Shown here: positions 1 to 15,215 of the stretch, piece after piece
Position numbering within the stretch: position 1 is the first letter of the stretch
Layout: each line of letters opens with the position of its first letter
From: Mycoplana rhizolycopersici
GTDB taxonomy: Bacteria; Pseudomonadota; Alphaproteobacteria; Rhizobiales; Rhizobiaceae
Direction: 5' to 3'
Assembly (NCBI RefSeq): GCF_013378445.1
Contig: NZ_JABXYK010000009.1
Coordinates: 1 to 64,000, forward strand
Length of the DNA: 64,000 bases
The notes under the pieces: generated by a model
Seen by the model: the letters and a program-made list of their open reading frames with translations, nothing else
Database searches by the model: none
Told to the model about the DNA's origin: nothing
Made by a program: the position numbers and the translations under genes

Positions 1-93
1 GACTACATCGAAATGTTCTACAACCCGAAACGCAAGCATGTCAGAAACGGGATGCTGTCGCCGGTAGAGTTCGAGATGCGGCAGAAAACCTAA
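1..93 (+). CDS. IS3-family transposase OrfB, C-terminal fragment
   Basis: The first 30 codons read DYIEMFYNPKRKHVRNGMLS followed by PVEFE and a TAA stop at 91-93. This is the typical end of the DDE integrase core (rve) domain of IS3-family OrfB transposases, which carry FYN..R.H..LG(M)LSP..FE at the C-terminus. The rest of the gene is left of the window, so intactness cannot be judged. It would catalyse excision and insertion of the element. Confidence 0.8.
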   Translation, partial: DYIEMFYNPKRKHVRNGMLSPVEFEMRQKT

Positions 94-126
94 CCCGAGG
101 GTGTCTACGAAACTCGGGGCTATTCA
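1..126 (+). mobile_element. Right end of an IS3-family insertion sequence
   Basis: The window opens inside an insertion sequence. Bases 1-93 encode the last 30 residues of an IS3-type transposase, and a 25-bp stretch at 102-126 has the form of the terminal inverted repeat: read inward on the minus strand it starts TGAATAGCCCCGAG and ends GTAGACA, and on the plus strand the element ends in CA-3'. The other end is outside the window, so the target duplication cannot be checked. The insertion lies inside the helicase gene to its right. Confidence 0.75.
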
Positions 127-1516
127 ACTGCCTTATCAAAGCGTCGCTGTTGCCTATCTTGGAATGCAACAGCAGCGGTTTCAGATCTGTGGCCAGGCGG
201 TCGTAGATCTCATGTACTTTTTTTGCTTTCGTGATGTTCTTGCAGCGGACCATCATCAGATGATTGAAGCCATTAGCTAGGTCTGCTCTCAACCGTGCAA
301 TTGCAGCCTCAGCAATAATTGCATCGGCCTTGGATGATACAGGCTCATATATCGGCTGAAATGTGATTGGCTTGAAATAGTTTTCTTCCTGCGCGCGCCG
401 CAAGGGATAGCTGTAAATGACTTGTCCATCGACAAGGAGGCCGTCACGCCGAAACGGTGTGGCGGTAAACTGCAAAACCTTTCGATCGCGAAAGGCGCCA
501 CGAAAAGAGCTCCAGCCTCTTGCAGCCACGTGATGTGCTTCATCCACGAAAAGCACCTTAACGCGCTTCGCGATTTCCTCAGCTAAATTGAATGCCGTTT
601 CTTCAGCCGTATCGCCTTCGGCTTCTTCAATAGACTCTTCTTCATCATCATCTTCGTCCTTCTCGGCAGCGCTCTTCTTTCCTTGAAACGCCGCCATAGT
701 GCTGACCACAACATGACACCGCTCAAATATCTCTAAGTCCTCAATAGTCTTTGGTCTTTTACTGATGATGCCAACGACGGGGTTTGAAACACTGTCATCC
801 AATGCGTGCAGCTTCCGCAGCCAACCGAAATTCAGGAACTTGCCCGCAGTCTGACTTCGCAATGCATCTGTGGGGACGATAACCAGCACGCTTTGACAAT
901 CATAAGCTGCGAGGGTCGCAAGCATTGTCTCCGTTTTGCCTGTTCCTGTCGGCATCACAACGGTCGCTGGCTGGCTTGTTAGGCTCCAATGAGCGCCAAT
1001 GGCGTGTAAAGCGCCAATTTGGGGAGGGCGAAGGCCTTCATTCCCAGCCGAAACAGTTCCATCTGCGTTTTGCTTTTCATGATGAAAATGAAATGAGGAA
1101 GGCCAATTACTTGAAATTGAATCGAGAACAGAAAGCCATCCTGTTTTCGCTGCTTTCTCATTCATCTCGTCGATAAGACGATGCGATTTCCATGTAAGAC
1201 TTCCATCGGATTTCCGAGACAAGAGCCCGTCTATATCAACTGGCCGCTTGAGGTTGGAACGTTCGGTGATCAGAACTGTCTCGCCGCCATGAAGCGTGTA
1301 GACTGTTTCTTTCGACCTGGAGGTTACCGCTACTTCACCGGTGGGTTGAGCCGAAACAAGCTGTTTAGGTCGGAGTACGCATTGTATCGCGCCAACAGAT
1401 GTCTTTACAGGCCCGTAGTTGAGCGGCGGCAAGCTGATCTCAATAGCCTCATCGAGAGCCAAGGTATTTATCGCATCCACGCTTGCTGACCCCGCATGTA
1501 GTGTATTCGTTAACAC
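41..1516 (-). CDS. DEAD/DEAH-box helicase, 3' end replaced by IS sequence (disrupted gene)
   Basis: A superfamily 2 helicase/translocase. Visible motifs are Walker A PTGTGKTE (about residues 189-196), DEAH box VDEAHH (324-329) and motif III FTATPFRRD (350-358). An unusual acidic linker (about 286-306, mostly D and E) sits between motif I and the DEAH box. The first 160 residues have no recognised domain. The second RecA-like domain begins near residue 380 and is cut at about residue 463, where the IS end at base 126 starts; the last 28 codons of the open frame are IS sequence. The start is GTG with no clear ribosome site, so an internal ATG (residue 118) is possible. The gene is last in the mobilisation operon, 24 bp after its neighbour. 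It could be a restriction- or defence-type helicase carried as cargo, but no nuclease partner is visible. It is probably non-functional. Confidence 0.75.
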   Translation of the reverse strand: MLTNTLHAGSASVDAINTLALDEAIEISLPPLNYGPVKTSVGAIQCVLRPKQLVSAQPTGEVAVTSRSKETVYTLHGGETVLITERSNLKRPVDIDGLLSRKSDGSLTWKSHRLIDEMNEKAAKTGWLSVLDSISSNWPSSFHFHHEKQNADGTVSAGNEGLRPPQIGALHAIGAHWSLTSQPATVVMPTGTGKTETMLATLAAYDCQSVLVIVPTDALRSQTAGKFLNFGWLRKLHALDDSVSNPVVGIISKRPKTIEDLEIFERCHVVVSTMAAFQGKKSAAEKDEDDDEEESIEEAEGDTAEETAFNLAEEIAKRVKVLFVDEAHHVAARGWSSFRGAFRDRKVLQFTATPFRRDGLLVDGQVIYSYPLRRAQEENYFKPITFQPIYEPVSSKADAIIAEAAIARLRADLANGFNHLMMVRCKNITKAKKVHEIYDRLATDLKPLLLHSKIGNSDALIRQLNSPEFRRHPRVRFSAASRTLPATASRF

Positions 1517-1540: not shown

Positions 1541-1942
1541 CTAGTCTCTGGCGCTGCCCAATACACGACTCATGCATCGTAGAGAGTCAACTAGGGCAGC
1601 GAAGCGTCGATGAGGGTCTGGTATTCGTAACCCGAGACGAAATTCCCGAAACGGGGCTGATCGCAGAGCATACTTTTCTAAGAAGTTCAGCGCATCCTCC
1701 AAGGTATCATCTCTGACATCCTCGTTAAATGCCCGCCTCACTGCGTCGGTTAGGATCGCCCAAGCGTCATGTTGGCCGAGCAAGTCAGCGCCTTCCTCAG
1801 CCCAGAGGCCGAAATGCTTCACACCGCGATACTTCTTGGAAAAATCATGCATAGAACAAATCAAGAACAAAAGAGTGGTTCTGTCCAGAAGAATCGACGC
1901 GTTCTTTCCAGAACTCCATGCATATCTTATGGCGTCAGCCAC
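1541..1942 (-). CDS. Hypothetical protein of the mobilisation operon
   Basis: A 133-residue protein I do not recognise. It has no membrane segment, signal peptide or known catalytic motif. It is rich in Arg and Leu, with a likely helical middle (AWAILTDAVRRAFNED, ALNFLEKYAL). Its ATG overlaps the last codons of the coupling-protein gene by 16 bp, which suggests translational coupling, and it lies 24 bp before the helicase start. It could therefore be an accessory to either. The overlap and the lack of a better frame here support a real gene, but function is unknown. Confidence 0.5.
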   Translation of the reverse strand: MADAIRYAWSSGKNASILLDRTTLLFLICSMHDFSKKYRGVKHFGLWAEEGADLLGQHDAWAILTDAVRRAFNEDVRDDTLEDALNFLEKYALRSAPFREFRLGLRIPDPHRRFAALVDSLRCMSRVLGSARD

Positions 1943-3315
1943 TCATACTTATCTGGCCTGTGACGAACATCGCGCAAATATCCTGCCATTTCAGGCCGTT
2001 CCCAGAAGTTCGGGAGGGCGACCGTATAAAATCCGTGGTCGCGAGACTCCAGCAGGCCACTATCGCCACCGGTGGCTTGCCTAATATTCTCAACCTGGAG
2101 AAGGGGGCGATGCTGTTCAGACAAGTTATCACCAGAACCATTCACCTGGTTCTGATTGACGTTGAAACCGCGTACCATAACCGATGTCTTGCCGGATCGA
2201 TGTTCGATCTCTTTCAGCGTGTCTCCGTCGGGGAGGCCACGATAGATCGTATGTGCGACGGCTTTCTTCCAAATACGCGCGGTCTCTTTTCCATACCGGC
2301 TTTCGATTTGAGCTGCAGCATTCTGGAAGACGCCTAGGAAGTTAATGCCGCCCTGTCGGTAAAGTGTAAGCATTTCGAAGAAATTTGAAACGTAAAGTTG
2401 TCCCCATTCCTCACCGATAACAAGCGCGCGTAGCGGCCCATGTGCATCCGCAAAGCGATCAATGATGGAAGCAGCCATCGTCCCCACAAACATTCGGCTT
2501 GAATCGCTGCGAGCCGACCCGATGATGAAAAGCGCGGTGCGCCCATACTTCATATCAGCGGGGTCGAAGCTGTTGGTTTCGGTGACGTCGCGCGCCGCAG
2601 AGGATGGCTGAAAACCTTGAAGCCGTTCCACCACCGTTGAAGAATATGCGTTCCATTGATCGGTAGAGGCCGTGAGGTTTGCGATCATCCTGCACATACC
2701 CCAATCCTCCTCCATGTCGGGATTTTCGGCCCATTGGCTGAGGTCCCATGCAATCTCTTCCGGCGCGCGCCCGAAGAAATCCCAGAGCCCGCCAACCGTA
2801 CATGGACGGTACGAGGAGGGATGCAGAGCCGCTATCTTGTAATATAGGGCGAAGCTCGTCCGCACGCCTTGGCCGATCCATTTATGGGCCGGATTTGGAT
2901 CGACCGGAACGAGATAGCTAGCAGCGTCGTATGCAGCTTCCCACACGAGAGATCGCAACGCTGGATTACCAGCGATTTCCAAAAGGCGAGTATTCGGGTT
3001 GTAGGTTTCAGATGGGTAGCCGTAGAGCTTGCCAGGATTGATAAATCTGACGCGATAGCCTTCGCGTTCAAGTGTTTTCCACGAAACCCAAGCCAGCTCG
3101 CCGTCTTTTGGATCGGTGATAATCTTCGATAGGTGCGCCGTTCTCGGTGACACGAGATTGACGCCAAGAAACCGCGTGAGCTTGCCCTTGCCCGCCTGAG
3201 CGTCGATGGCAACTGGCTCGGTGCCATCGTAGATCAACGGATTGCCGTTGAAGAAACCAAGTTCGATCCCTCGTTTCAGGTTTCGATATACGGCGAGTTC
3301 GGTGCTGTGGGTCAT
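1927..3315 (-). CDS. VirD4/TraD-like type IV coupling protein, soluble ATPase part only
   Basis: A 462-residue coupling-protein ATPase that would link the relaxase-DNA complex to a type IV secretion channel. A Walker A-like segment DAQAGKGKLTR lies at about residues 38-48 and is degenerate against the usual GxGKS/T. The Walker B region ALVIGEEWGQL (297-307) is followed by the helix typical of VirD4/TraG proteins, with GINFLGVFQN.AQIESRYG (323-342). Full-length VirD4 proteins carry N-terminal transmembrane helices. This one has none, and the operon encodes a separate small membrane protein two genes upstream. The start ATG overlaps the previous stop (ATGA). The fold assignment is fairly secure; activity with the altered Walker A is uncertain. 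Confidence 0.75.
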   Translation of the reverse strand: MTHSTELAVYRNLKRGIELGFFNGNPLIYDGTEPVAIDAQAGKGKLTRFLGVNLVSPRTAHLSKIITDPKDGELAWVSWKTLEREGYRVRFINPGKLYGYPSETYNPNTRLLEIAGNPALRSLVWEAAYDAASYLVPVDPNPAHKWIGQGVRTSFALYYKIAALHPSSYRPCTVGGLWDFFGRAPEEIAWDLSQWAENPDMEEDWGMCRMIANLTASTDQWNAYSSTVVERLQGFQPSSAARDVTETNSFDPADMKYGRTALFIIGSARSDSSRMFVGTMAASIIDRFADAHGPLRALVIGEEWGQLYVSNFFEMLTLYRQGGINFLGVFQNAAAQIESRYGKETARIWKKAVAHTIYRGLPDGDTLKEIEHRSGKTSVMVRGFNVNQNQVNGSGDNLSEQHRPLLQVENIRQATGGDSGLLESRDHGFYTVALPNFWERPEMAGYLRDVRHRPDKYEWLTP

Positions 3316-3533
3316 AACAGGCCAGACCTTCTCAGCTCTTCTTCGTCATTGAGCTGCGCAGTGCCGAGCGCACCAGACGGATGAGCGGTGAGCATCGCGC
3401 GCATTCGCGCGCGCGCCTGTTTTTCTGCTCTATCTCGCGCAATCCGAGCTTGCGCGGCATCTTCCCATGCAAGGCGCTGTTGAGAATGAGATTCCAGCAT
3501 CCAGAGGAAATTGTACGCCGAGGTGAGATTCAT
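3312..3533 (-). CDS. Small hypothetical protein of the mobilisation operon
   Basis: A 73-residue protein, highly charged, with a predicted long helix (residues 20-45, many Arg, Ala and Glu). It has no recognisable domain. Both ends overlap neighbours by ATGA (the membrane protein upstream, the coupling ATPase downstream), which is strong evidence that it is translated. Its position between a membrane protein and a membrane-less coupling ATPase suggests an adaptor role; this is inference only. Confidence 0.6.
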   Translation of the reverse strand: MNLTSAYNFLWMLESHSQQRLAWEDAAQARIARDRAEKQARARMRAMLTAHPSGALGTAQLNDEEELRRSGLL

Positions 3534-4018
3534 CGCGCTTCCTCGTCATCCCAAGATGCGTATCGGAACGGTTCGGCTTGCACTGGCGGCGGGGCAAGAG
3601 CGCGGGATGCAGGCTGCACGACTTCAGGGTCTTCAATCGCGTTCTTGCGTTTTTCTTCCTCCTGATGCGCGACATAGCTTTGCAACAACGCACCGAAGAC
3701 ATAACCGACCCATGGGCTGTAAGTCAGGACTTCCGGCTTGAAGGCCGTCCCTAATCCAGCGGACATCAGGACGACTAGCAAAGGAGCGACAACCGCGCCT
3801 ATGAGCCCACAATATACGAAGCTACGTGCTTCCTCCGGCGTGATTGTTGTCCGCCAAATCGTTCTTGGCTCATTCCAAGCCCAGATCGCCACGACCGTGA
3901 GCACCGCAACGATGATTGCGAATACGAAGAATACGAACATAGCCAAGATGATGAAGCTCGCGGCTATCAATCCGGCGGCTGCGGCAAAATTAGCAGTTTC
4001 GTCATTCCGAGAAGACAT
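3530..4018 (-). CDS. Multi-pass membrane protein, candidate membrane module of a split coupling protein
   Basis: A 162-residue protein with a long hydrophobic N-terminal stretch (about residues 12-48, one or two helices), a second segment at 68-90 and a third at 102-117. A charged, Pro-rich tail of about 45 residues follows. I know no domain for it. It follows the relaxase by 16 bp with a good AAGGAG site and overlaps the next gene by ATGA. VirD4-type coupling proteins normally have membrane helices at the N-terminus, and the ATPase here lacks them. This protein may supply that membrane part in trans; it could equally be an unrelated entry-exclusion or pore protein. Confidence 0.65.
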   Translation of the reverse strand: MSSRNDETANFAAAAGLIAASFIILAMFVFFVFAIIVAVLTVVAIWAWNEPRTIWRTTITPEEARSFVYCGLIGAVVAPLLVVLMSAGLGTAFKPEVLTYSPWVGYVFGALLQSYVAHQEEEKRKNAIEDPEVVQPASRALAPPPVQAEPFRYASWDDEEAR

Positions 4019-4034
4019 TTTGACACTCCTTGGT

Positions 4035-5303
4035 TTAGCGTTCCAGACGAAGACCCCGCGAAATCACGCGGGTTTGCGATTGCCCTCGATTTTGCGAGAG
4101 ATTGAGATAGCGACCGACATCCTTGCGGAGATCGCGAAGCAGCGAAGCTTGGTTTTTTCGCAGTTCGACAATTGATTTTTGCAGGCTTGCTCGCTCCGAG
4201 CGTTGCCGATCAACTAGCTGCGCACGTTCCGCCGCCTGGGCATTGAGGGTCGATTGCGCTTCCTGCTCGTTCTGCTGTCGAACCTTTTGGTATTGGCCAG
4301 TGAGACGATGCCAAAGCCCCCGCAGTCCTTTAGGGATGCGGCCCGCGCGTGTTCGGGTTTCATCGATCCAACGCTGGCCCTGACGGTCAGCAAGAGCGGC
4401 GCGTTCGGCGCGGTGCTCACGCGTCATCGCCTGTTTTAACTCACCAAGCGATGCAGATCGCTCAGCGAACCGCTTACGGGATTCATCAACGTGACGACGG
4501 ATCGTAGGGCTCATCCGTACGCCAATTTCTCGTTGGAGCTTGCCCACATCCGGTAGATTGATGCCGTCACCTAAGCGACCCCGCATCTGCTTGGCTGTCA
4601 TGCCAAGAGTGCGCGAGAGCGATTGAATGCCGCCTTCGTGATCGACCAAAACGAAGCTCCGACGGTCGCCGCGACCGAGGCGAAAGCCATATTCTCGGAG
4701 AGCGCGATCGAAGGTGGTTCCACTGTCCGACCTGGACCAGCAGTCTTGCACGAGTTGTTTAGTCCATCGTGGGTCAACGCCTTGGCGTTTGGCCTGCTGC
4801 CATTCCGCCAGTGTGAAATTTGTAGGATCGCGTTTCGCAGTATCGAGCATGCCGCGCGGCATGTCCCAGCCATGTTCAAGATAGAGGCTTTTGGAAATCT
4901 CCATCATTCGGTTCTTGAAAAAGGGAAGAGGGCGCGCCGTCATCGTGTCCGCATCGATCCTCGACCAGACGCAGTGAATATGAGAACGCCCGTCCTTCTC
5001 GTGACCAACGATTGCGCGGGGTTGGCCCGTCAGTCCCAGACGTTCTTCGACACGATCTATCGCCTGGTTGAAAGCTTCCAGCGAAACGACTTTGCCAGAG
5101 GGCGGATTCAGCGAAAGCGAGAAGAGGTACTGGCGGCATTTCGTGCCACGGCTCACAGCCTCAGCTTCTTTAAAAGCACCGTGCAGATCGTCCGCCGAGA
5201 ACCCCCGCAATTCGTGGATATTGACGTGCTCATTGTCATCGATACGCATCAGGTGCGCCGCGAGATTTTGGCCGTTGCCTCGCTGTGAGCCTTTCAAAAT
5301 CAT
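4035..5303 (-). CDS. Relaxase / mobilisation nuclease
   Basis: A 422-residue DNA relaxase that would nick the transfer origin and lead the strand into a recipient. The metal-binding three-histidine motif is clear: HEKDGRSHIHCVWSRID at residues 101-117 (H101, H108, H110). The N-terminal region GSQRGNGQNLAAHLMR (5-20) and the segment CRQYLFSLSLNPP (56-68) match a relaxase family common in Rhizobiales mobilisable elements. The catalytic tyrosine is not obvious near the N-terminus; Tyr59 is one candidate. The C-terminal 150 residues are Arg/Gln/Glu-rich and probably coiled coil. Its start overlaps the mobC-like stop by ATGA, the usual relaxosome gene order. Confidence 0.88.
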   Translation of the reverse strand: MILKGSQRGNGQNLAAHLMRIDDNEHVNIHELRGFSADDLHGAFKEAEAVSRGTKCRQYLFSLSLNPPSGKVVSLEAFNQAIDRVEERLGLTGQPRAIVGHEKDGRSHIHCVWSRIDADTMTARPLPFFKNRMMEISKSLYLEHGWDMPRGMLDTAKRDPTNFTLAEWQQAKRQGVDPRWTKQLVQDCWSRSDSGTTFDRALREYGFRLGRGDRRSFVLVDHEGGIQSLSRTLGMTAKQMRGRLGDGINLPDVGKLQREIGVRMSPTIRRHVDESRKRFAERSASLGELKQAMTREHRAERAALADRQGQRWIDETRTRAGRIPKGLRGLWHRLTGQYQKVRQQNEQEAQSTLNAQAAERAQLVDRQRSERASLQKSIVELRKNQASLLRDLRKDVGRYLNLSQNRGQSQTRVISRGLRLER

Positions 5304-5731
5304 CGCGCGGCTCCCGTTTGAAGCCCGAGCGCGTCGATCAGGATTTTTCGTAGTTCGACTACAGAGCGGCAGGCCTCAGCAAGATCGGCCTCCGTTTCTG
5401 GCGTGACGGGCAAAACGCCCAGGTGCACAGCTTTCGCAAGCTGATTGAGGTTCGACGCAAGATGCGAGCGCCCCAGAAGAGCCAGAATCTGTGCTAGTGC
5501 CTTCTGGTCTTCGACCGAAACCCCGATTGCGCGCCGTCCTTTCAAGGGCGGGGAGCCGAGCGCCTTCGATTTGATATAAGCGCCGAGGGGGACACCCCGA
5601 GCTTCGGCGTAAAGACGTGATCTTTCATCCTCGCTGAGGCGCAGGCTAAATGGCGCTTTCCGTCTCTTTGCCAGAATGGGTTGGACCGCTGAGACATGTG
5701 CTTTAGGCGAAAAATCTGCGCTCAGGGACAT
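5300..5731 (-). CDS. MobC-like relaxosome accessory protein
   Basis: A 143-residue protein placed directly before the relaxase. The N-terminal half (FSLRLSEDERSRLYAEA) resembles the ribbon-helix-helix DNA-binding domain of relaxosome proteins. The C-terminal half holds the MobC signature, with SNLNQLAKAVHLG near residues 93-105 and a helical end. It probably binds and melts the transfer origin for the relaxase. The region upstream of this gene is therefore the best place to look for oriT. Confidence 0.8.
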   Translation of the reverse strand: MSLSADFSPKAHVSAVQPILAKRRKAPFSLRLSEDERSRLYAEARGVPLGAYIKSKALGSPPLKGRRAIGVSVEDQKALAQILALLGRSHLASNLNQLAKAVHLGVLPVTPETEADLAEACRSVVELRKILIDALGLQTGAAR

Positions 5732-5835
5732 GGCGGCACCTGCAAGCCATCGCGCTTACGGTGCTCAAGGAAGGCGTTCCATTCGATAAGGGTCTCGAAC
5801 AACTCGTTCGAAGTGGCGCTATCTATGCGCGCCAT
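5719..5835 (-). CDS. Possible 38-residue leader gene overlapping mobC start
   Basis: A short frame starts at ATG 5835 with GGTGGAAAGA directly upstream and ends at 5719, 13 bp inside the MobC-like gene. The product would be MARIDSATSNELFETLIEWN followed by AFLEHRKRDGLQVPPCP. It has no known homolog that I can name. The overlap and the ribosome-site-like sequence suggest translational coupling to mobC, but such a short frame can arise by chance. Confidence 0.35.
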
Positions 5836-6173
5836 TCTTTCCACCACGCCTAAATAAGTCTAGGCACCACGAAGGATGAGGTAGCTTTGCGCTCTCTCGG
5901 TGGTTTGTGAGCGCGGACGCCCGCTTCCAAGGCGCTTCTCAATTCTGGAAAAAGGCCGACATCCTTGGACGGCTGACGCTTGAACGTCGCCGCATGCCCC
6001 TCCAGGGTATAGTCCGTCATCGGAGTCGGTCAGGTGGCGACCAGTGCTGCTCTGAACTCGCATTGCGACGGCTAAGCCACAGCTCGCGCGCATGAATACA
6101 GTTCCGAGCCCGAGGCAGACGGCGGGAACGGCCCCGCCGATCAAAAATCCGGAGCGTCATGACCGGTACCCCG
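5836..6173. other. Intergenic region between mobilisation operon and accessory genes; candidate oriT
   Basis: I see no convincing gene here. The open frames on both strands have no ribosome site and no recognisable product. As the upstream flank of the mobC-relaxase operon it is the expected place for the operon promoter and the transfer origin. A small inverted repeat GCCTA-N8-TAGGC is near 5847-5864. It probably also contains the right boundary of the mobile element. I could not identify a nic site. Confidence 0.4.
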
Positions 6174-7263: not shown

Positions 7264-9681
7264 TCAGAGAATGAAGTCGGACGCCTTGAAGGTGATCAAG
7301 TGATCCACGAAGATCGAAAAGTCGGCCTTCTTGTCGCCATTCACATCGCCGGTGACGAGCGTCCCTGAGCCGGACTTCTCATACCGCAATTCACCGGCTT
7401 TGCCGCTGAATACGTCCTTGTCAATGAAGCTGAAAGCCTGGCCGCCGGACTTCTTCGTGTTGGCGTCGATCCGCGATACGTCGATCAGATCACCCTGGCT
7501 GCGATAGAAGTCCTTGATCGTGTCCCGACCGCTGGCAGCAACGGTGGAGTCCTTTGTCGAGGTGAAGATAAACCGGTCCGCGCCAGAGCCGCCGGTCAGC
7601 ACGTCCGCACCCAGGCCGCCGGTGATGCGGTCGTTGCCGCTGCCGCCGGAAAGGATATCTTTGCCCTTGCCGCCGTCGATGAAGTCATTGCCGCTGCCGC
7701 CGTTGATCTTGTCCGCAGACGAACCACCCTCGATATGGTCGCTTCCTTTGCCGCCAGTGACGTTCAGCTTCGTGCCGGACGCCGCGGAAATGTATGCGCC
7801 GCCGTTGTCCAGCTTGACCGGACCCGAGCCGCTGATCCTGACGAGATCGACATCCTTGATGTCGGTCGTCGCGATCTTCGTTCCCGTGCTGTCAACCTTG
7901 ACGGTCAGGTATCCCTTGTCGCTCTGGAGCGCTGTCTTCTTGCTGATCGTTACCGTGCCCACCGACGGCGCCTTCGTCATGTCGATGACTTCGATCCCGT
8001 CGAGGCGACCGAAGGCAGTCAACTTGAGGCTGGATCCCTTGACGACCTGAATGGTGTCTGTGCCGGCACCACCCACGAGATGGAGCTTGTCGTCGAGATA
8101 GCCGGGCGACATCTTGAACACGTCATTCTTGTTCGTGCCGGTCGCGCCCCGCTCCGAGCCCATCAGTTCGACGGTGACGCCCTTACTCACGGCCTTGCTG
8201 AAGGTGAAGTTCTTGTTGGCGAGCTTGCTGGCGGTCACGTTGTTGAGAACGACCTCGTCGCCCCCGCCAAGCGATATGACCGTCGATTTACCGATCTGGC
8301 GGATCGCAAGGTCGGCCTTGCGGACGATGCCGGTGCTGGAAAGATCAAGCTTGTCTTCGGAAAGCGAGAAATCAGTCACCGTGTCCAAGTCGTAGCCGCG
8401 CTTGAAGATGAAGAGATCGGCGCTGCCACCGCCTGTCAGGATATCATTGTCGGCACCGCCGTCGATACGATCCTTGCCGTTGCCGCCGACAAGCTTGTCC
8501 ATGTCGGCACCGCCGGCGAGATCGCTGCCGGAGTTGGAACCGTAGATGTTGTCCTGCGCCGAGCTGCCGCGGAAATACTTGAACTTCACGTCGTTCGCAT
8601 CGATCGTGGAATTCGGGTGGATCTTCGGATTGCCCGGTGCAACGCCGCCGTGAGCATATTTGCCGTCGTAGCTCAACACCGCGCGATCGACGTAGATGGT
8701 GTTCTGGTCGTCAGGGCTGCCGTGGAAGTTGATGTCGCGGTTTGTCGAAAGGACGTGGAAGCTATTGTAATGCTCCGCGCTCCACGAACCGAACAGAACC
8801 GAATGGCGCATGTCCATGTCGGTGAGGTTGACGAAGGTGTTGTTGAAGGCGTGCTTGAAGAAGAACGCGTAGCCGTTGCCCTCTGCGCCCTTGTTGTGCG
8901 AGCCGATGGTCGTCAGCCTATCACCCGAAATGCCGTATACCGAACTGAAGGTGAAGCCATGCGAGGCGTTGTCCTTCACTTCGATGTCGTGCAGATTGAC
9001 ATCGGTCGCACGGGTGACCTCGACGGTCGAGGAATTGTTGAACTTGTCAACCTTGTTGGTGAAGTCGAATTTGCCGGCCGTGCCAAGATCAGTCTTGATC
9101 GAGAGCCCGCCGATCTCGATGTTCTTGACCACGTTGACGACGCTGACGGTCGTCTTGCCCTTCTCAAAATTGTAAGGCGTTGGCGACTTCTCCAGCACCA
9201 CCTCGCCGGTCTTGGTATTCACCGACTTGACCTTTGCGATCATTTCTCGGAGCGGGTCGGTTCCTGCGGCCTTAAGGTGCGTATTGCCCACGGACTTGAA
9301 CCAGGCGTCGTCGTTCGCCTGCTGAAGCTGAATGATGGACCCTGCTGAAATGCCATCGACGTTCGACAACTTGAGCGTCGTCGTCTTTCCCTTGACGGTC
9401 GATTCCGTGAGACTGGCTGTCAGTTCGACTGCCTTGCCGCCCTGAATATCAAAGGCAGTGGCGTTGTCTGTGTCTTTCGCCTTGACCGTGATATTCGTCT
9501 TTCCGACGCCCGCGCCGAGGATGGTGATGTCGCTGCGTGCGATCACGACCTTGTCGTCGAAGGTGTAGTTTCCTGCCTTGAACTGGATCGTCGAGCCCGC
9601 GGCCGCGTTTTTGATTGAGGCAGAAATGTCGGCAGCTTTAGCGCCGACTTCGATCGTATATGTTGCCAATTTCGTCACCAC
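7264..9681 (-). CDS. Secreted beta-helix / RTX calcium-binding protein
   Basis: An 805-residue secreted protein. The N-terminal half (about residues 10-370) has the pattern of a right-handed parallel beta-helix (pectate lyase/epimerase-like), with stacked segments such as ITILGAGVGKTNITV and VNLHDIEVKDNASHGFTF. Two blocks of calcium-binding GGxGxDxxx nonapeptides follow, near residues 375-427 and 640-707. The last 100 residues resemble the serralysin C-terminal domain and end FKASDFIL, a typical type I secretion signal; there is no N-terminal signal peptide. Rhizobial polysaccharide lyases and glycanases exported by PrsDE-type systems are built this way, so action on an exopolysaccharide is plausible but unproven. 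The start appears to be GTG with a weak ribosome site. No ABC exporter is encoded nearby. Confidence 0.8.
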   Translation of the reverse strand: MVTKLATYTIEVGAKAADISASIKNAAAGSTIQFKAGNYTFDDKVVIARSDITILGAGVGKTNITVKAKDTDNATAFDIQGGKAVELTASLTESTVKGKTTTLKLSNVDGISAGSIIQLQQANDDAWFKSVGNTHLKAAGTDPLREMIAKVKSVNTKTGEVVLEKSPTPYNFEKGKTTVSVVNVVKNIEIGGLSIKTDLGTAGKFDFTNKVDKFNNSSTVEVTRATDVNLHDIEVKDNASHGFTFSSVYGISGDRLTTIGSHNKGAEGNGYAFFFKHAFNNTFVNLTDMDMRHSVLFGSWSAEHYNSFHVLSTNRDINFHGSPDDQNTIYVDRAVLSYDGKYAHGGVAPGNPKIHPNSTIDANDVKFKYFRGSSAQDNIYGSNSGSDLAGGADMDKLVGGNGKDRIDGGADNDILTGGGSADLFIFKRGYDLDTVTDFSLSEDKLDLSSTGIVRKADLAIRQIGKSTVISLGGGDEVVLNNVTASKLANKNFTFSKAVSKGVTVELMGSERGATGTNKNDVFKMSPGYLDDKLHLVGGAGTDTIQVVKGSSLKLTAFGRLDGIEVIDMTKAPSVGTVTISKKTALQSDKGYLTVKVDSTGTKIATTDIKDVDLVRISGSGPVKLDNGGAYISAASGTKLNVTGGKGSDHIEGGSSADKINGGSGNDFIDGGKGKDILSGGSGNDRITGGLGADVLTGGSGADRFIFTSTKDSTVAASGRDTIKDFYRSQGDLIDVSRIDANTKKSGGQAFSFIDKDVFSGKAGELRYEKSGSGTLVTGDVNGDKKADFSIFVDHLITFKASDFIL

Positions 9682-10044: not shown

Positions 10045-13000
10045 ATGACAGGCCAGCATCAATCGCAAGACAACGGTATGCTTGACGCTTCTGGAGAAGC
10101 CCTTCCGATCGACGGCAACACCGGGACGCCGCATGTCTCCAATGGTGCGGACATACTTGCGCTGACAGAAGAGTTTCGCTCGCTGCTGGACCTGAACGCC
10201 GCCCTTCGGCTGCGCGTCGACGCTTCTGAGCGGGCCATGCGCAACGCTGCCGCCGCCGCCGACAGGCAGAAGGACCAGCTTGCCTACCGGCTTGGCAGCG
10301 AACTGATCGCGGCCAGCCGTTCCGTCTCCGGGCTCGTGGGGCTGCCGGTTTCGCTGCGCCGGGCCTACAGGGAATACAGGATAGACCTGTCGAAGCGCGG
10401 TCAGGACGCACCGTCTCCGGACGATCCGGTTGCCCATCCGGCAGAGGAGACGCACCCGGCGCTTTCCGAAACCGCTGACGATGCTCGATCACAGGCAGAT
10501 CTCGCGGACAATCTTGCGGCCCAGATCGAGGCGCTCCAGCAAAATAACGCGATACTCCTGGAGCGTGCGGTTCAGGCAGACCAGGCCAAGCGGCGCTCAA
10601 AGGATGCGATCAGCCAGATCCAGGCCCAGCTCGCCTACCGCCTCGGCGCAGACATCGTCGCGGCACGATCGCTGCCGGCAATGCTGAAGTTGCCCTTCGC
10701 CCTGCGCCATACCTATGCAGACTTCAAAAGGAAGAGCAGGCAGGGTTCTGCGGGCAAGCGCGGCAAAAAGGGCGACGGCCAGGTATCGAACCATCGCAAT
10801 ATCGCCGACCTCGAAGCGAAAATGTGGGGCGGGTTTGCCAGATACGCGCACGCCGAACTCGAGCAATGCCTGGAAGACCGTGGCCTGAGCTCCAGCCAGC
10901 GATCAGCCGCAGCTTATGCTCTGGCGCGCTGGAGCTTCGTCGAGGGTGACTTCAGCCATGCGGCCGATCTTATGGAGCGCAGCATCCGGCTCCACCGCGA
11001 CAACATTCGTGAGAAACGCCTGTGCCAGTTCATGTGCCTGGCGCAGGCGGGTCGCGCCGCGGAAGCCGACACGCTGATGCGCGGGATGCAGGCGAAGGTG
11101 GATTCCTTCATCGACTTCTCGCTCATGCAGGCGGACGTGCTACGCCGAAAGGCGCGTCTTGAGGGCCAGTCGCCGTCCGAGTGCGACCAGATCTATCTGA
11201 ATGGCCTCAACTTCGCGATGACACCATCCGGCATGGCGCCGATCAGGCTCGCCGACCCCTCAAAACCTCTCAGCATCTGGAACATTATCGCGCATCCGCC
11301 CGCAAGCCAGGCGGCACAGGACCTGAAGGTTTCCATCATCATTCCGGCCTTCAATGCCGAGAAGACCTTGACGATGGTGCTGGAGAGCCTCGCGGCACAG
11401 ACATGGCGCAACATCGAGATCATCGTCGTCGACGATTGCAGCACCGACGGTACCTGCGCGCTGGTCGAGCGGTTCGCGGCTGACGATCCGCGTGTCCGCC
11501 TCGTTCGGCGCAAGGTCAACGGCGGAGCCTATCCGTCGCGGAACGACGGTGTGGAAGTAGCGACCGGCGACTTCATCACCGTTTGCGACAGCGACGACTG
11601 GTCTCATCCGGAGAAGATCGAGCGGCAGATGCAGGAACTGCTGGCCAATCCGGACTGCGTGGCAGTCCTTTCCCACTGGCTTCGCGTCGACGACGACCTT
11701 GGCGTGGTCGGCTCCTGGATTCCGAAGAAGAGCCTGCTGGACATGAACTTCTCCTCCCTTCTGGTCCGGCGCGAGGTCTTCGACCGCCTGCGCGGCTGGG
11801 ATGAAGTGAGGGTGACGGGGGACGCGGAGTTCAGGTCGCGGATTGTCGCCGTCTACGGCGATGCTTCGATCTGCAAGGTCAGACATAACAATATCCTGTC
11901 GTTCTCCCTGGCGCGCGAAGATTCGCTGACCCGCTCAAAGGCGACGCACATGCGCTCGCTCTACTACGGCGTTCGCGGCCAATACCGCGATTCCTACCGC
12001 AACTGGCATCTGAGCCTCGAGCAAGGCGGCGATCCCTATCTTCCCCGGACAAACGGCCGTTTCCCGGTGCCGATGGGTAACCAGCGCCGACCGGCCGGAG
12101 AGCAGACGTTCGATCTCGTGGTCATCTGCGACTTCGTCCTCAAGGGCGGCGCGTTTGTTTCGACGATGAACTACATTGCGGCCGCTGCCCGCTCCGGGCT
12201 CAAGATCGCCGCGGTCCACTGGCGAAAGTATGAGTTGAACGTTGAGTCGTCGCTCAATCCCGTTTTCTACGACGCCTGCCTCAAGCACGGCATTGCAATC
12301 CTCACGCCCGGCGACATTGTGAAGGCCAGCACGGTGCTGATCGGCTATCCTGCCGTGCTGCAGAACCTGCCCGACCGCTTTGCGAAGATCGAGGCCGACA
12401 ACGTGATCGTGCTGATCAACCAGTTCGCGACACGGCTGGTGGACGGTTCCGACCGTCAGTATGAACCGGAGGTGATCCGCCAGCATCTGGTGGAGCTGTT
12501 CGGCACGCCCGGCACCTGGATACCGATCTCGCACTGGGTGAAGCGGCTCATGCAGGAGGATCCGACCTATCCGGAGCCTTATGCCGATCCGTGGCACCCG
12601 ATGGTCGATACCGATACGTGGTGCTCGGAACCGATCGTATGGCGCGGCGGCGGTGATCGCCGCCCGGTCCTCGGCCGCCATGGCCGGGACGCCTACACCA
12701 AATGGCCCAGCACGCTCGAGGCGCTCAAGGCCGCCTACTGCGTCGACACCGATGTCGAAGTGAAGTTTCAGGGCGGCGCGAAGCATGCGAGAGGCATGCT
12801 CGGCTACTCGCCGCAGAACTGGGAAGTCCAGCATTTCGATGCCACGCCCGTCAGCACCTTCTTGGCGGACCTCGATTTCTTCATCCACTTCCCGCACGAA
12901 CTCTATATCGAGGAATTCGGTCGTGCGCCCATGGAAGGGATGGCTGTCGGCAAGGTGACGATCCTGCCGCCGCAGTTCCGGGAGACCTTCGGGGACGCTG

Positions 13001-13182
13001 CCGTCTACTGCGAGCCCGAACAGGTTCTGGAGACTGTGCGCCGGTTCTGGAGCGATGAATCCGCCTACCGGGCGCAGGCCCAGAAAGGGCGCGACTTCGT
13101 TCTCCGCCACTGCAACCAGCAGCAGTTCCCGGCGCGACTGGAAGCTTTTGCGGGACGAGCAGAAATCTTGAAACGCGCCTGA
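10045..13182 (+). CDS. Large multidomain glycosyltransferase (GT2 plus second GT-like domain)
   Basis: A 1045-residue protein. Residues 1-250 are polar and partly coiled coil and contain an internal duplication (QLAYRLG..I.AA.S...L.LP..LR..Y at about 78-112 and 195-228). A TPR-like helical part (about 285-345) follows. The GT-A family 2 domain (about 428-640) starts VSIIIPAFNAEKTL and contains VVDDCSTDGT and the metal-binding CDSDDW near residue 514. The last 330 residues resemble a GT-B-type domain (PMEGMAVGKVTILPP near the end). I chose ATG 10045 because AAGAGGG lies just upstream. With its neighbours it probably builds a surface polysaccharide. There is no membrane segment. Confidence 0.8.
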   Translation: MTGQHQSQDNGMLDASGEALPIDGNTGTPHVSNGADILALTEEFRSLLDLNAALRLRVDASERAMRNAAAAADRQKDQLAYRLGSELIAASRSVSGLVGLPVSLRRAYREYRIDLSKRGQDAPSPDDPVAHPAEETHPALSETADDARSQADLADNLAAQIEALQQNNAILLERAVQADQAKRRSKDAISQIQAQLAYRLGADIVAARSLPAMLKLPFALRHTYADFKRKSRQGSAGKRGKKGDGQVSNHRNIADLEAKMWGGFARYAHAELEQCLEDRGLSSSQRSAAAYALARWSFVEGDFSHAADLMERSIRLHRDNIREKRLCQFMCLAQAGRAAEADTLMRGMQAKVDSFIDFSLMQADVLRRKARLEGQSPSECDQIYLNGLNFAMTPSGMAPIRLADPSKPLSIWNIIAHPPASQAAQDLKVSIIIPAFNAEKTLTMVLESLAAQTWRNIEIIVVDDCSTDGTCALVERFAADDPRVRLVRRKVNGGAYPSRNDGVEVATGDFITVCDSDDWSHPEKIERQMQELLANPDCVAVLSHWLRVDDDLGVVGSWIPKKSLLDMNFSSLLVRREVFDRLRGWDEVRVTGDAEFRSRIVAVYGDASICKVRHNNILSFSLAREDSLTRSKATHMRSLYYGVRGQYRDSYRNWHLSLEQGGDPYLPRTNGRFPVPMGNQRRPAGEQTFDLVVICDFVLKGGAFVSTMNYIAAAARSGLKIAAVHWRKYELNVESSLNPVFYDACLKHGIAILTPGDIVKASTVLIGYPAVLQNLPDRFAKIEADNVIVLINQFATRLVDGSDRQYEPEVIRQHLVELFGTPGTWIPISHWVKRLMQEDPTYPEPYADPWHPMVDTDTWCSEPIVWRGGGDRRPVLGRHGRDAYTKWPSTLEALKAAYCVDTDVEVKFQGGAKHARGMLGYSPQNWEVQHFDATPVSTFLADLDFFIHFPHELYIEEFGRAPMEGMAVGKVTILPPQFRETFGDAAVYCEPEQVLETVRRFWSDESAYRAQAQKGRDFVLRHCNQQQFPARLEAFAGRAEILKRA

Positions 13183-13295
13183 ACTCTGCGTCGAGAGAGG
13201 TCAGCCTGTTGCGGCCGCGGTCATTCCCGAGCGCATCCGGCGAAACGTCACGGATATATCATTGGCCGAGTCCGGCCAATCAATGGAGCCTGTTG

Positions 13296-14168
13296 GTGTC
13301 GCTACGCAAGATCGCCGGGGGAAGCCCTGCCAGCAATTCAGAGACGACCCTCGCCTTTGCGTTCGACAGTGGCTATCTCGCGCCCTTCGGCGCCATGCTA
13401 CGCTCGATGGTCAAGCAGCGCACGCTGCTCGACTGTCCAATTGCCATCTACACCGACGATCCGAATGTCTTCAAGGATCCGCTGGTGCTGGCCGTCACCG
13501 ACGTCAAGCGCACGGTCGACGGACCGCTTCTCGAAACCATGTACAAGGCGGCCAGGGACACCGTGAAGAGACCGGAGCGTGCGGCCTGGAACAAGGGCAC
13601 GTTCCTCAAATGGTCGGTGTTCGAGCGCCAGCAAACAAGGCAGCTTCTTTTCCTTGACGTCGACATGATCTGCCGTGCCCCGCTGGAGGAGTTGCTGGCG
13701 CTGCGTCCTCGAAAGCCCTTTCTCTGCGCGCCGCAGATCCAGCGGTCGCTGTTCCAGGATGGCGACGGCAAGCGCCGGGCAGATGCTGACATCGAAGCCC
13801 GCTTGCAACGCCTGCTGGATGGGGAACTCTGGGGCCCGCATACGCGGCGCGTCAACAGCGGAATGATGCTCATCCGCGAACCCCTGCTGAGCACGGAATT
13901 TCGCGACGAACTGCTGCGCTATGCGTTTGCCTCCGAACCGCAATTGAACGAGCAGAGTCACTTCAGCAAATACTTCGCCGAGAACCCTTCACTCATGACG
14001 ACAGTGAGCGTGAAATACAACTTTCAGGCGAATTACCTGCGCTACATCGAACAAGCCAAGCGCAGCGACTTCGCTTCCCAGGCAACGATCCTGCACTACG
14101 CCGGCAAGAGCAAGCCCTGGAATGCCACGAAGCACGAGCCGTTCCAGCTGGAATGGTTCTGCGCCTGA
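13296..14168 (+). CDS. GT8-like glycosyltransferase
   Basis: A soluble protein of about 290 residues. It begins its fold with TTLAFAFDSGYLAPFGAMLRS and has the nucleotide-sugar/metal DxD motif in LLFLDVDMIC, later NSGMMLI and a terminal ILHYAGKSKPWN. This is the order seen in glycogenin/GT8-type transferases (HYxGxxKPW). The open frame extends to a TTG at 13209, but GGAG at 13285-13288 favours the GTG at 13296 (or the TTG at 13293). It follows the large glycosyltransferase by 113 bp on the same strand and probably works in the same polysaccharide pathway. The sugar donor is unknown. Confidence 0.75.
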   Translation: MSLRKIAGGSPASNSETTLAFAFDSGYLAPFGAMLRSMVKQRTLLDCPIAIYTDDPNVFKDPLVLAVTDVKRTVDGPLLETMYKAARDTVKRPERAAWNKGTFLKWSVFERQQTRQLLFLDVDMICRAPLEELLALRPRKPFLCAPQIQRSLFQDGDGKRRADADIEARLQRLLDGELWGPHTRRVNSGMMLIREPLLSTEFRDELLRYAFASEPQLNEQSHFSKYFAENPSLMTTVSVKYNFQANYLRYIEQAKRSDFASQATILHYAGKSKPWNATKHEPFQLEWFCA

Positions 14169-14249
14169 TCTTTTCGTCATGCTGCTGCTGCTGGCGGCGT
14201 CACATCGGGCTTTGTCGTGCAAGCGGCAAGCTACCAAGCCATGCTTCGC

Positions 14250-15215
14250 TTACCTGATCACCGGCTCGCCGTGATAGCGCCGCCGTGATGGCTTGGATAC
14301 GCCGAACCCGACTTCCATCATCAGGCGCGGCTTTTGCGTCGCCACCGTTCCCATATGGAATCCAAAGGGATCCTCCACGAAACCGAAGCCTGCGCTGCCG
14401 GTCAGCGTCTGGGCATTCTCCCTGCCGTAGAAATCCAGCACTTCGTTTGCCGGATGCCCGACGAGCAGCGTCAACTGATGTTTCAGGCGCCGGCGCCGAT
14501 GGCTGCCGCGGACGTAGACATGCGGGCCTGCGGTCTCGTCGACATCGGTCAGATAAAAGAAGAACTTCAGCATGCGCCAATCGTCCAGATCGAAATGATA
14601 CTTGAAGGAGGCACGGCTGAGATCGGCGTCGGAAGCTGATTTCGTCGGGAAACTCCACCAGATACGCGCGCAGATGAGCTGCGCCTCTCCGCCGAGATAG
14701 TGCCGGGCCACATCCAGCAGCAGCGGATCGCGCTGGACGGTAAGCGCCGCCTCGCATTGCATCACCCGCTCGAAATGATGGCCGCTGAGGATGGTCCTGC
14801 CGAAACGGCGCTCGGCCTGCTCATGATCGGCCGCCAGAAACTCGAGCTTGCGTTCGAAGTTGCCGAAGCACGGCGTCTCATGACCGAAGCGCGCGATTTC
14901 CTCGCGGATCTCGGCCGGCAGCACAAGACAGGTAGAGATGCCGCTGCTTCTCAACTCATTGGCGATACGCGCAGCATCCAGCATGCCGAAGATGGATGGC
15001 GCCGCAGCCGACGCGGGCGACACGCGCCGCGCGGTGAGCCAGTGCGCCCTGCGAAACGGCATGGTGCGCGCCAGCAAGAACATCGGTAGCCAGGCCGGGT
15101 TCTCCCTGAGATCGGCAAGATAGGTCGGAACGCGCGCCGCCATGCGGCGAAAGCGTCCTCCCGTACGGGCAATGGTCTCGAGATCCCTTGCTTGAGGTCC
15201 ACGCGTGACAGGCAT
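14250..15215 (-). CDS. Phytanoyl-CoA dioxygenase (PhyH)-like protein
   Basis: A 321-residue protein with the features of a non-heme Fe(II)/2-oxoglutarate oxygenase. The HxD iron motif is in KYHFDLDDWRM, the segment FFFYLTDVDETAGPHVYVRG follows, and a distal histidine is in FGFHMGTVATQKPR. Such enzymes hydroxylate lipids, sugars or natural products. Here the neighbours are glycosyltransferases, so modification of a glycan or lipid is possible. AAGGAAG precedes the ATG at 15215. It is transcribed towards the GT8-like gene (convergent, 81 bp apart). Confidence 0.72.
   Translation of the reverse strand: MPVTRGPQARDLETIARTGGRFRRMAARVPTYLADLRENPAWLPMFLLARTMPFRRAHWLTARRVSPASAAAPSIFGMLDAARIANELRSSGISTCLVLPAEIREEIARFGHETPCFGNFERKLEFLAADHEQAERRFGRTILSGHHFERVMQCEAALTVQRDPLLLDVARHYLGGEAQLICARIWWSFPTKSASDADLSRASFKYHFDLDDWRMLKFFFYLTDVDETAGPHVYVRGSHRRRRLKHQLTLLVGHPANEVLDFYGRENAQTLTGSAGFGFVEDPFGFHMGTVATQKPRLMMEVGFGVSKPSRRRYHGEPVIR

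Follow-up and report, generated by a model that had tools for sequence, protein, structure and literature searches.

A mobilisation block with a putative three-piece VirD4-type coupling protein at one end of a tRNA-Arg-integrated element of Alphaproteobacteria

VirD4-type coupling proteins usually carry their membrane part and their ATPase on one chain. Can the same motor be assembled from separately encoded pieces, and what kind of mobile element would carry it? This question is raised by the start of contig NZ_JABXYK010000009.1 of Mycoplana rhizolycopersici (Rhizobiaceae; assembly GCF_013378445.1), whose first 64,000 nucleotides (nt), read on the forward strand, form the window analysed here. 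Five genes follow one another on its minus strand from position 5731 to 1927, in the order mobC, relaxase, 162-aa membrane protein (mem162), 73-aa linker (link73) and 462-aa coupling ATPase. An earlier note, made from the sequence of this stretch, had proposed that the coupling protein is split. Comparison with relatives makes it likely that this protein is a VirD4-type motor divided into three chains, namely membrane part, linker and ATPase.

The five open reading frames (ORFs) lie at the coordinates that the note had given (Table 1). Three of the four joints are 4-nt start/stop overlaps (mobC/relaxase at 5300-5303, membrane/linker at 3530-3533 and linker/ATPase at 3312-3315), and a 16-nt gap separates the relaxase from the membrane gene. 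The mobC product matches the NikA-like (5e-4) and MobC (9e-3) families weakly, in both cases below the Pfam cut-off, and the membrane protein and linker have nothing above cut-off in Pfam or NCBIfam. A decayed module was considered and rejected, as all five frames are intact in the window, although the ATPase is broken or cut in some relatives.

The ATPase carries the VirD4 core, with TraG-D_C (PF12696, 5e-11) and T4SS-DNA_transf (PF02534, 1e-10) both above the Pfam gathering cut-off. It has no transmembrane (TM) helix: the highest 19-residue hydropathy (KD19) of the window protein is 0.79, and none of 32 homologues, some of them incomplete copies, has a 19-residue stretch of at least 1.6. Both features had been read correctly from the window, and the degenerate Walker A that was noted alongside them holds in part. 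The motif reads IDAQAGKGK and Walker B reads GEEW, both kept in the family, with GKG and the lysine retained and the flanks altered. The IDAQA before GK-G is unusual, as is GEEW, but GK-G itself is also found in related coupling proteins (TRSGKG in locus L074, ARQGKG in L026). Identity to 27 aligned relatives is 68-81%, and the Walker A lysine and the acidic pair at Walker B are invariant in 28/28 aligned rows. The same Walker A, ending in KL or KF, occurs in eight of nine loci from a protein/profile search, several of which come from the same genomes; the ninth, L065, gave no match to the Walker A pattern used. A search of PDB sequences with the ATPase returned a single match, dismissed as chance.

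How constant is the block? When one genome per species was scanned with the ATPase alignment, 32 named loci emerged; the scan used the patterns GTEPVAID and AQAGKGKL, so that the uniformity of Walker A in this set stems partly from selection. Relaxase, membrane protein, linker and ATPase stand in this order in all 32 loci, and mobC is present in 31, with a contig edge truncating the remaining locus. Six loci, L047, L050, L056, L057, L060 and L061, give an incomplete ATPase match. With start codons picked by a scripted rule, the 4-nt overlap recurs at linker/ATPase in 26/32 loci, at membrane/linker in 21/32 and at mobC/relaxase in 28/31. That the block is kept by chance was rejected because the five genes are retained in 31/32 loci. 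Outside it, ORF families of at least 90 aa are common to at most 9 of 33 loci in the flanks examined, the most widespread flanking families being a small helper gene and a serine recombinase, both downstream.

A profile scan of 397 genomes of the order found strong ATPase matches (E <1e-200) in six. Separate scans of the same genomes found strong matches to the membrane protein (<1e-49) and the linker (<1e-35) in the same six, each time adjacent, together with two marginal membrane matches containing internal stops; three weaker ATPase-profile matches are distant coupling proteins. Among 385 genomes drawn from the class Alphaproteobacteria, the window's own genome gave the sole strong ATPase match, and plasmid searches returned neither a close ATPase (best places 23-25% identity) nor the membrane protein. 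The five-gene block is a fixed unit in scattered Alphaproteobacteria of several orders, yet it is rare. The system of Rhizobiales envisaged at first is indeed present there, but it reaches beyond that order.

The membrane protein has two strong hydrophobic stretches (residues 22-40 and 67-85), and its AlphaFold2 model (mean pLDDT 89) has helices at 6-46, 61-89 and 95-129; the last of these supplies the third of the 'about three' hydrophobic segments counted originally. The protein ends in a conserved ASWDDEE-like tail. In VirD4 proteins, Walker A is generally preceded by a motif like the one conserved at the C-terminus of the linker, PSGxLGxAxLxD...GLL. This C-terminus aligns just upstream of Walker A in five related type IV coupling proteins (T4CPs; hhalign P 1.4e-4), two of which lack a transmembrane domain (TMD). 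In L048 (Roseococcus), linker and ATPase form one 568-codon ORF. Mixed alignments of linker and ATPase made with MAFFT for folding were misaligned and discarded. Comparable arrangements occur in more distant elements: in L074, a 506-aa TMD-less protein with a linker-like start follows 5 nt after a 166-aa membrane protein, a 137-aa membrane protein overlaps a 559-aa TMD-less ATPase in L076, and small membrane genes of 103 and 106 aa lie beside a TMD-less ATPase in L077 and L027, respectively. L026, L075 and L030, on the other hand, encode single-chain coupling proteins with a hydrophobic N-terminus.

A split coupling protein is supported because the close homologues lack a membrane domain, the order of the pieces is colinear, linker and ATPase are fused in L048 and other splits exist in distant elements. 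On homology, the proposal of the earlier note is upheld: not one of the 32 ATPase homologues has a membrane domain of its own, and the small membrane gene is adjacent in all 32 loci. In the mechanism that we propose, mem162 would be the membrane anchor, link73 would contribute a juxtamembrane helix together with the pre-Walker A motif, and the ATPase would be the 462-aa protein, the three chains together making up one VirD4-like complex at the membrane. This complex would deliver the relaxosome to a helper type IV secretion system (T4SS) and its mating channel. The gene block, the co-occurrence, the lack of TM helices in the ATPase and, as described below, the element ends and the empty site are direct observations; contact between the chains, their function, the use of a helper and the histidine nucleophile discussed below are inferred.

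Several results weigh against this reading. The structure model of the fused linker-ATPase of L048 is poor (pLDDT 58); even so, a Foldseek search with it counts in favour of the split motor, ranking three Cag-beta coupling ATPase chains first (probability 1.00, E 3e-3 to 5e-3), with no match at 0.001 or better. The fusion itself is known from a single genome, where a frameshift or an error in sequencing could have produced it. With a broader set of 13 coupling proteins the linker aligns weakly (hhalign P 0.065), and HMMER comparisons of the linker profile were not significant with related T4CPs, nor with other small membrane proteins. For L028, a distant TMD-less ATPase, there is no small membrane ORF among the same-strand ORFs listed nearby. 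The genome scans score few first-look candidates per genome and thus show co-occurrence better than absence. Finally, VirB4 was found in only 2/10 block genomes, the window's own included, and in 4/14 of all genomes searched; with no VirB4 anywhere in 8/10 block genomes, a helper is often absent.

The membrane protein also evolves far faster than the ATPase (24-36% identity in 31 relatives versus 68-81%) and finds no structural match in PDB at E 0.001, and TMD-less coupling proteins without a membrane partner are known as well (PMC7431656). These points would suit a different assignment, in which mem162 and link73 have an accessory role, such as recruitment or entry exclusion, outside the coupling protein, and the ATPase is soluble or docks on the coupling protein of the helper. 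This assignment is improbable in view of the strict co-occurrence and colinear order of membrane protein, linker and ATPase, the fusion in L048 and the other lineages with a small membrane gene beside a TMD-less ATPase. Least probable is an inactive ATPase that blocks or diverts the helper's coupling protein, for although the family retains IDAQAGKGK and GEEW instead of the usual Walker A and B, the Walker A lysine and the Walker B acidic pair never vary in the 28 rows, the whole ATPase is highly conserved and a relaxase stands beside it in 32/32 loci.

The relaxase matches PF03432 (4e-13) and has the 3-His motif. MOBP relaxases usually have an N-terminal catalytic tyrosine; here there is none, and across 31 rows (window and 30 relatives) no tyrosine is fully invariant, Tyr141 and Tyr338 being nearly so. 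His17, His108 and His110 are invariant in the same rows and His101 nearly so, in line with the clear 3-His motif and the missing tyrosine first remarked on. Seven of seven further relaxases, including those of plasmids pTF4.1 and pSREG01, typed MOBP by MOB-suite, also have a histidine at position 17. This pattern suggests that His17 is probably the nucleophile. MobM of pMV158 uses a histidine as nucleophile (PMC5863519) and thus likewise has histidine in place of tyrosine; it belongs to another relaxase family (MOBV as opposed to MOBP-type), and the use of histidine here is read from conservation.

Beyond mobC, the earlier note had ended its operon at position 5835. The coordinate is right, but what ends there is a mobile element and not merely an operon, which the note had missed: the block forms one end of a probable integrative mobilizable element (IME) inserted at a tRNA-Arg gene, whose opposite end holds a large serine recombinase. 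The attachment (att) core ATGGCGC is common to both junctions, at the 3' end of tRNA-Arg(acg). The sister genome G004 (L102) has the empty site, in which the host DNA right of window position 5914 and that of contig C3 from 484 are about 90 bases apart; no close ATPase was found in G004. Contig C3, which belongs to the window's own genome, begins with the C-terminal part of the recombinase. In seven of nine other block genomes the recombinase lies on the block's contig (G026, G278, G033, G088, G442, G376 and G030; the ORF of G376 is cut short), in G015 it is on another contig, and G418 has just a tRNA-overlap scrap. On the contig edge, window 1-91 looks by eye like the end of an IS3-type transposase ORF, which may be the reason that the element is divided between contigs C9 and C3.

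Genome G344 also has the recombinase downstream, in an element with the relaxase but a different ATPase. Its locus L074 holds a remnant at 2648-2797, directly after the relaxase, that matches the C-terminus of the ATPase profile, and a different membrane/ATPase pair at 12493-14519, about 10 kb from the remnant; this looks like replacement of the coupling module within the element. Directly before the serine recombinase lies a gene of about 110 aa (L062, 13809-14144, and relatives), a family present in 9/33 loci. The L062 copy has no Pfam match, and the gene is a candidate recombination helper.

At the left end, the att core leads at once into an ORF of about 35-38 codons upstream of mobC. A similar tail occurs in all 33 left ends (pairwise alignment scores 56-204 against a shuffled maximum of 34, with queries drawn from the same loci), and its stop lies within 13 nt of the mobC start in 28/33. 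The core has the same phase in 28/33 as well; it is out of phase in L032 and L034, altered in L037 and missing in L055, and the stretch read in L048 contains no stop. Coding constraint acts on the tail, with a median ratio of nonsynonymous to synonymous substitution rates (dN/dS) of 0.34 and all values below 1 (11 tails, 54 usable pairs). It was also considered as a mere upstream part of mobC; this was rejected, as the two are in different frames in the window. At 11/12 right-end loci examined, the recombinase frame runs into the core in the phase that matches; L116, among the eleven, is a fragment elsewhere on the G376 contig, the twelfth, L110 (the cut ORF of G376), stops before the core, and L047, whose recombinase ORF is broken, was left out of the count. 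In the integrated form, the end of the recombinase is encoded by the tRNA gene, e.g. MAHPKRFELLTPRF.

Since the frame phases match at both ends and the tail is conserved and constrained, the recombinase would gain the tail in the circle and run into mobC. In the integrated state, it would take its tail from the tRNA gene and the mobilisation genes would be cut off from it; once the recombinase has excised the element from tRNA-Arg, its frame would continue through the 37-residue element-encoded tail and stop at the mobC start. MobC and the relaxase, probably via His17, would then nick oriT. We judge it an evenly balanced call that the element gates itself in this way, i.e. that the att site lies inside the serine-recombinase frame, so that excision would alter the C-terminus of the recombinase (a possible direction switch), couple recombinase, MobC, relaxase and three-piece coupling protein in one operon and turn on transfer. 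Both principles of such a switch have precedents: in Tn916, certain transcripts arise only once the att ends have been joined (PMC6540685), and in the integration-dependent immunity of mycobacteriophage BPs, attP lies inside a gene and integration changes the C-terminus of the product (PMC4557955). What differs here is that the att site is proposed to lie inside the frame of an IME recombinase and to join recombinase and mobilisation genes.

The chief competitor, less favoured though far from negligible, takes the 37-codon ORF as a leader peptide or a DNA site (oriT or a recombinase site) instead of a recombinase tail. Owing to the TGG of the core, the in-phase first codon is always NTG, and the ORF could start translation itself; a TCGAAC-N5-GTTCGA stretch within it is palindromic in a number of loci, and the four loci with an out-of-phase, altered or missing core fit this alternative too. 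The matching phase at the right ends, the coding constraint and the stop so close to mobC speak against it. No sequence across the joined att ends was observed directly. Locus L031 (NZ_JFZJ01000118.1, 1-9849) is a contig that starts within the tail and stops at the att core on the recombinase side. The assembly seemingly broke at both element ends, which could reflect a circular form among the reads; joining the two contig ends gives no in-frame read-through, with bases missing between them as the contig starts inside the tail.

For transfer through a borrowed channel, the window's genome offers a VirB4 gene beside SLT-domain genes on contig C16, a channel that the element could use. Other genes appear to travel with the block. 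In L045 (11205-13741), L047 (11424-13391) and L062 (10464-12311), the cargo resembles anti-phage systems (RmrA, QatC-like, Gabija GajA, methylase). Ten larger cargo proteins were picked, with cargo annotated in part of the elements; 7/10 match PADLOC with E values of 1e-6 or below, including GajA (1e-236), a methylase (4e-133), PDC-M33A (1.5e-31) and a QatC-like protein (4e-30), and three have no match. This suggests that the element family ferries defence genes and that the cargo differs between elements. The helicase at the other side of the block is possibly defence cargo too; its PADLOC match is weak (PbeA, 2e-7) and it looks shortened at its C-terminus. Between helicase and block lies a 133-aa ORF with no Pfam or NCBIfam family at E 1, whose homologue adjoins the ATPase in 1/32 loci (L055). 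In the host DNA beside the element, window 7264-9681 encodes an 805-aa protein with RTX calcium-binding repeats.

Table 1. Features of the element end in the window, with the evidence for each assignment.
Feature	Position	Strand	Evidence
att core ATGGCGC, left end of integrated element	5829..5835	-	same 7 bases at recombinase end (L090, contig C3, 490)
37-codon ORF from att core into mobC start; proposed recombinase tail in circle	5722..5835	-	tail family in left ends, dN/dS
MobC/NikA-like relaxosome accessory protein, 143 aa	5300..5731	-	weak Pfam, before relaxase in 31/32 loci
MOBP-type relaxase, 422 aa, His17 at usual Tyr place	4035..5303	-	PF03432, alignment
Small membrane protein, 162 aa, proposed TMD of split coupling protein	3530..4018	-	AlphaFold2 helices, 32/32 loci
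Linker protein, 73 aa, proposed juxtamembrane helix and pre-Walker A motif	3312..3533	-	32/32 loci, hhalign, L048 fusion
TMD-less VirD4/TraG-type coupling ATPase, 462 aa	1927..3315	-	Pfam above cut-off, no TM
133-aa ORF, overlaps ATPase stop, outside conserved block	1541..1942	-	ORF call
Cargo DEAD/ResIII helicase, apparently cut by IS3-like end at 1-91	41..1516	-	PF04851 1e-21

How new is such a system? Llosa and Alkorta distinguish five coupling-protein subfamilies, the third of which consists of T4CPs without TMD, with TraJ/TraI of pIP501 as an example (PMC7434980, PMC7431656). The likeness is close, as the pIP501 pair likewise consists of a VirD4-type nucleotide-binding protein that lacks membrane helices and a small membrane partner that is proposed to complete a VirD4-like complex; here, however, there are three pieces including a separate linker gene with the pre-Walker A motif, the host is Gram-negative and the carrier is a probable IME, not a plasmid. 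TraG-J pairs also join a coupling protein to an adjacent small membrane protein, but that coupling protein has TM segments itself (PMC7434980), whereas the coupling ATPase described here has no TM helix. CloDF13 with its MobB and Streptococcus IMEs with their own VirD4 resemble the present element in bringing their own coupling protein and borrowing a channel (PMC7434980, PMC7431656, PMC5704250). Those systems have MOBC relaxases and MobB has its three-helix TMD on one chain, in contrast to the MOBP-type relaxase and split protein seen here.

Since TMD-less T4CPs paired with a small membrane protein form a recognised subfamily, the architecture is not categorically new. The present system is a variant within that kind, with a three-way split and a separate linker; two features come on top, the His-type MOBP-like relaxase and a recombinase frame running through the att site. 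The comparison suggests an alphaproteobacterial IME family with a coupling protein of its own and a MOBP-type relaxase, a combination that does not appear in the available text of an IME review (PMC5704250). A natural three-piece VirD4 would show where a coupling protein can be cut, and the roles of the membrane part and the pre-Walker A linker would become separable gene by gene. If true, the att-spanning frame would tie transfer to excision in a simple, built-in way and might explain how such a serine recombinase could change direction.

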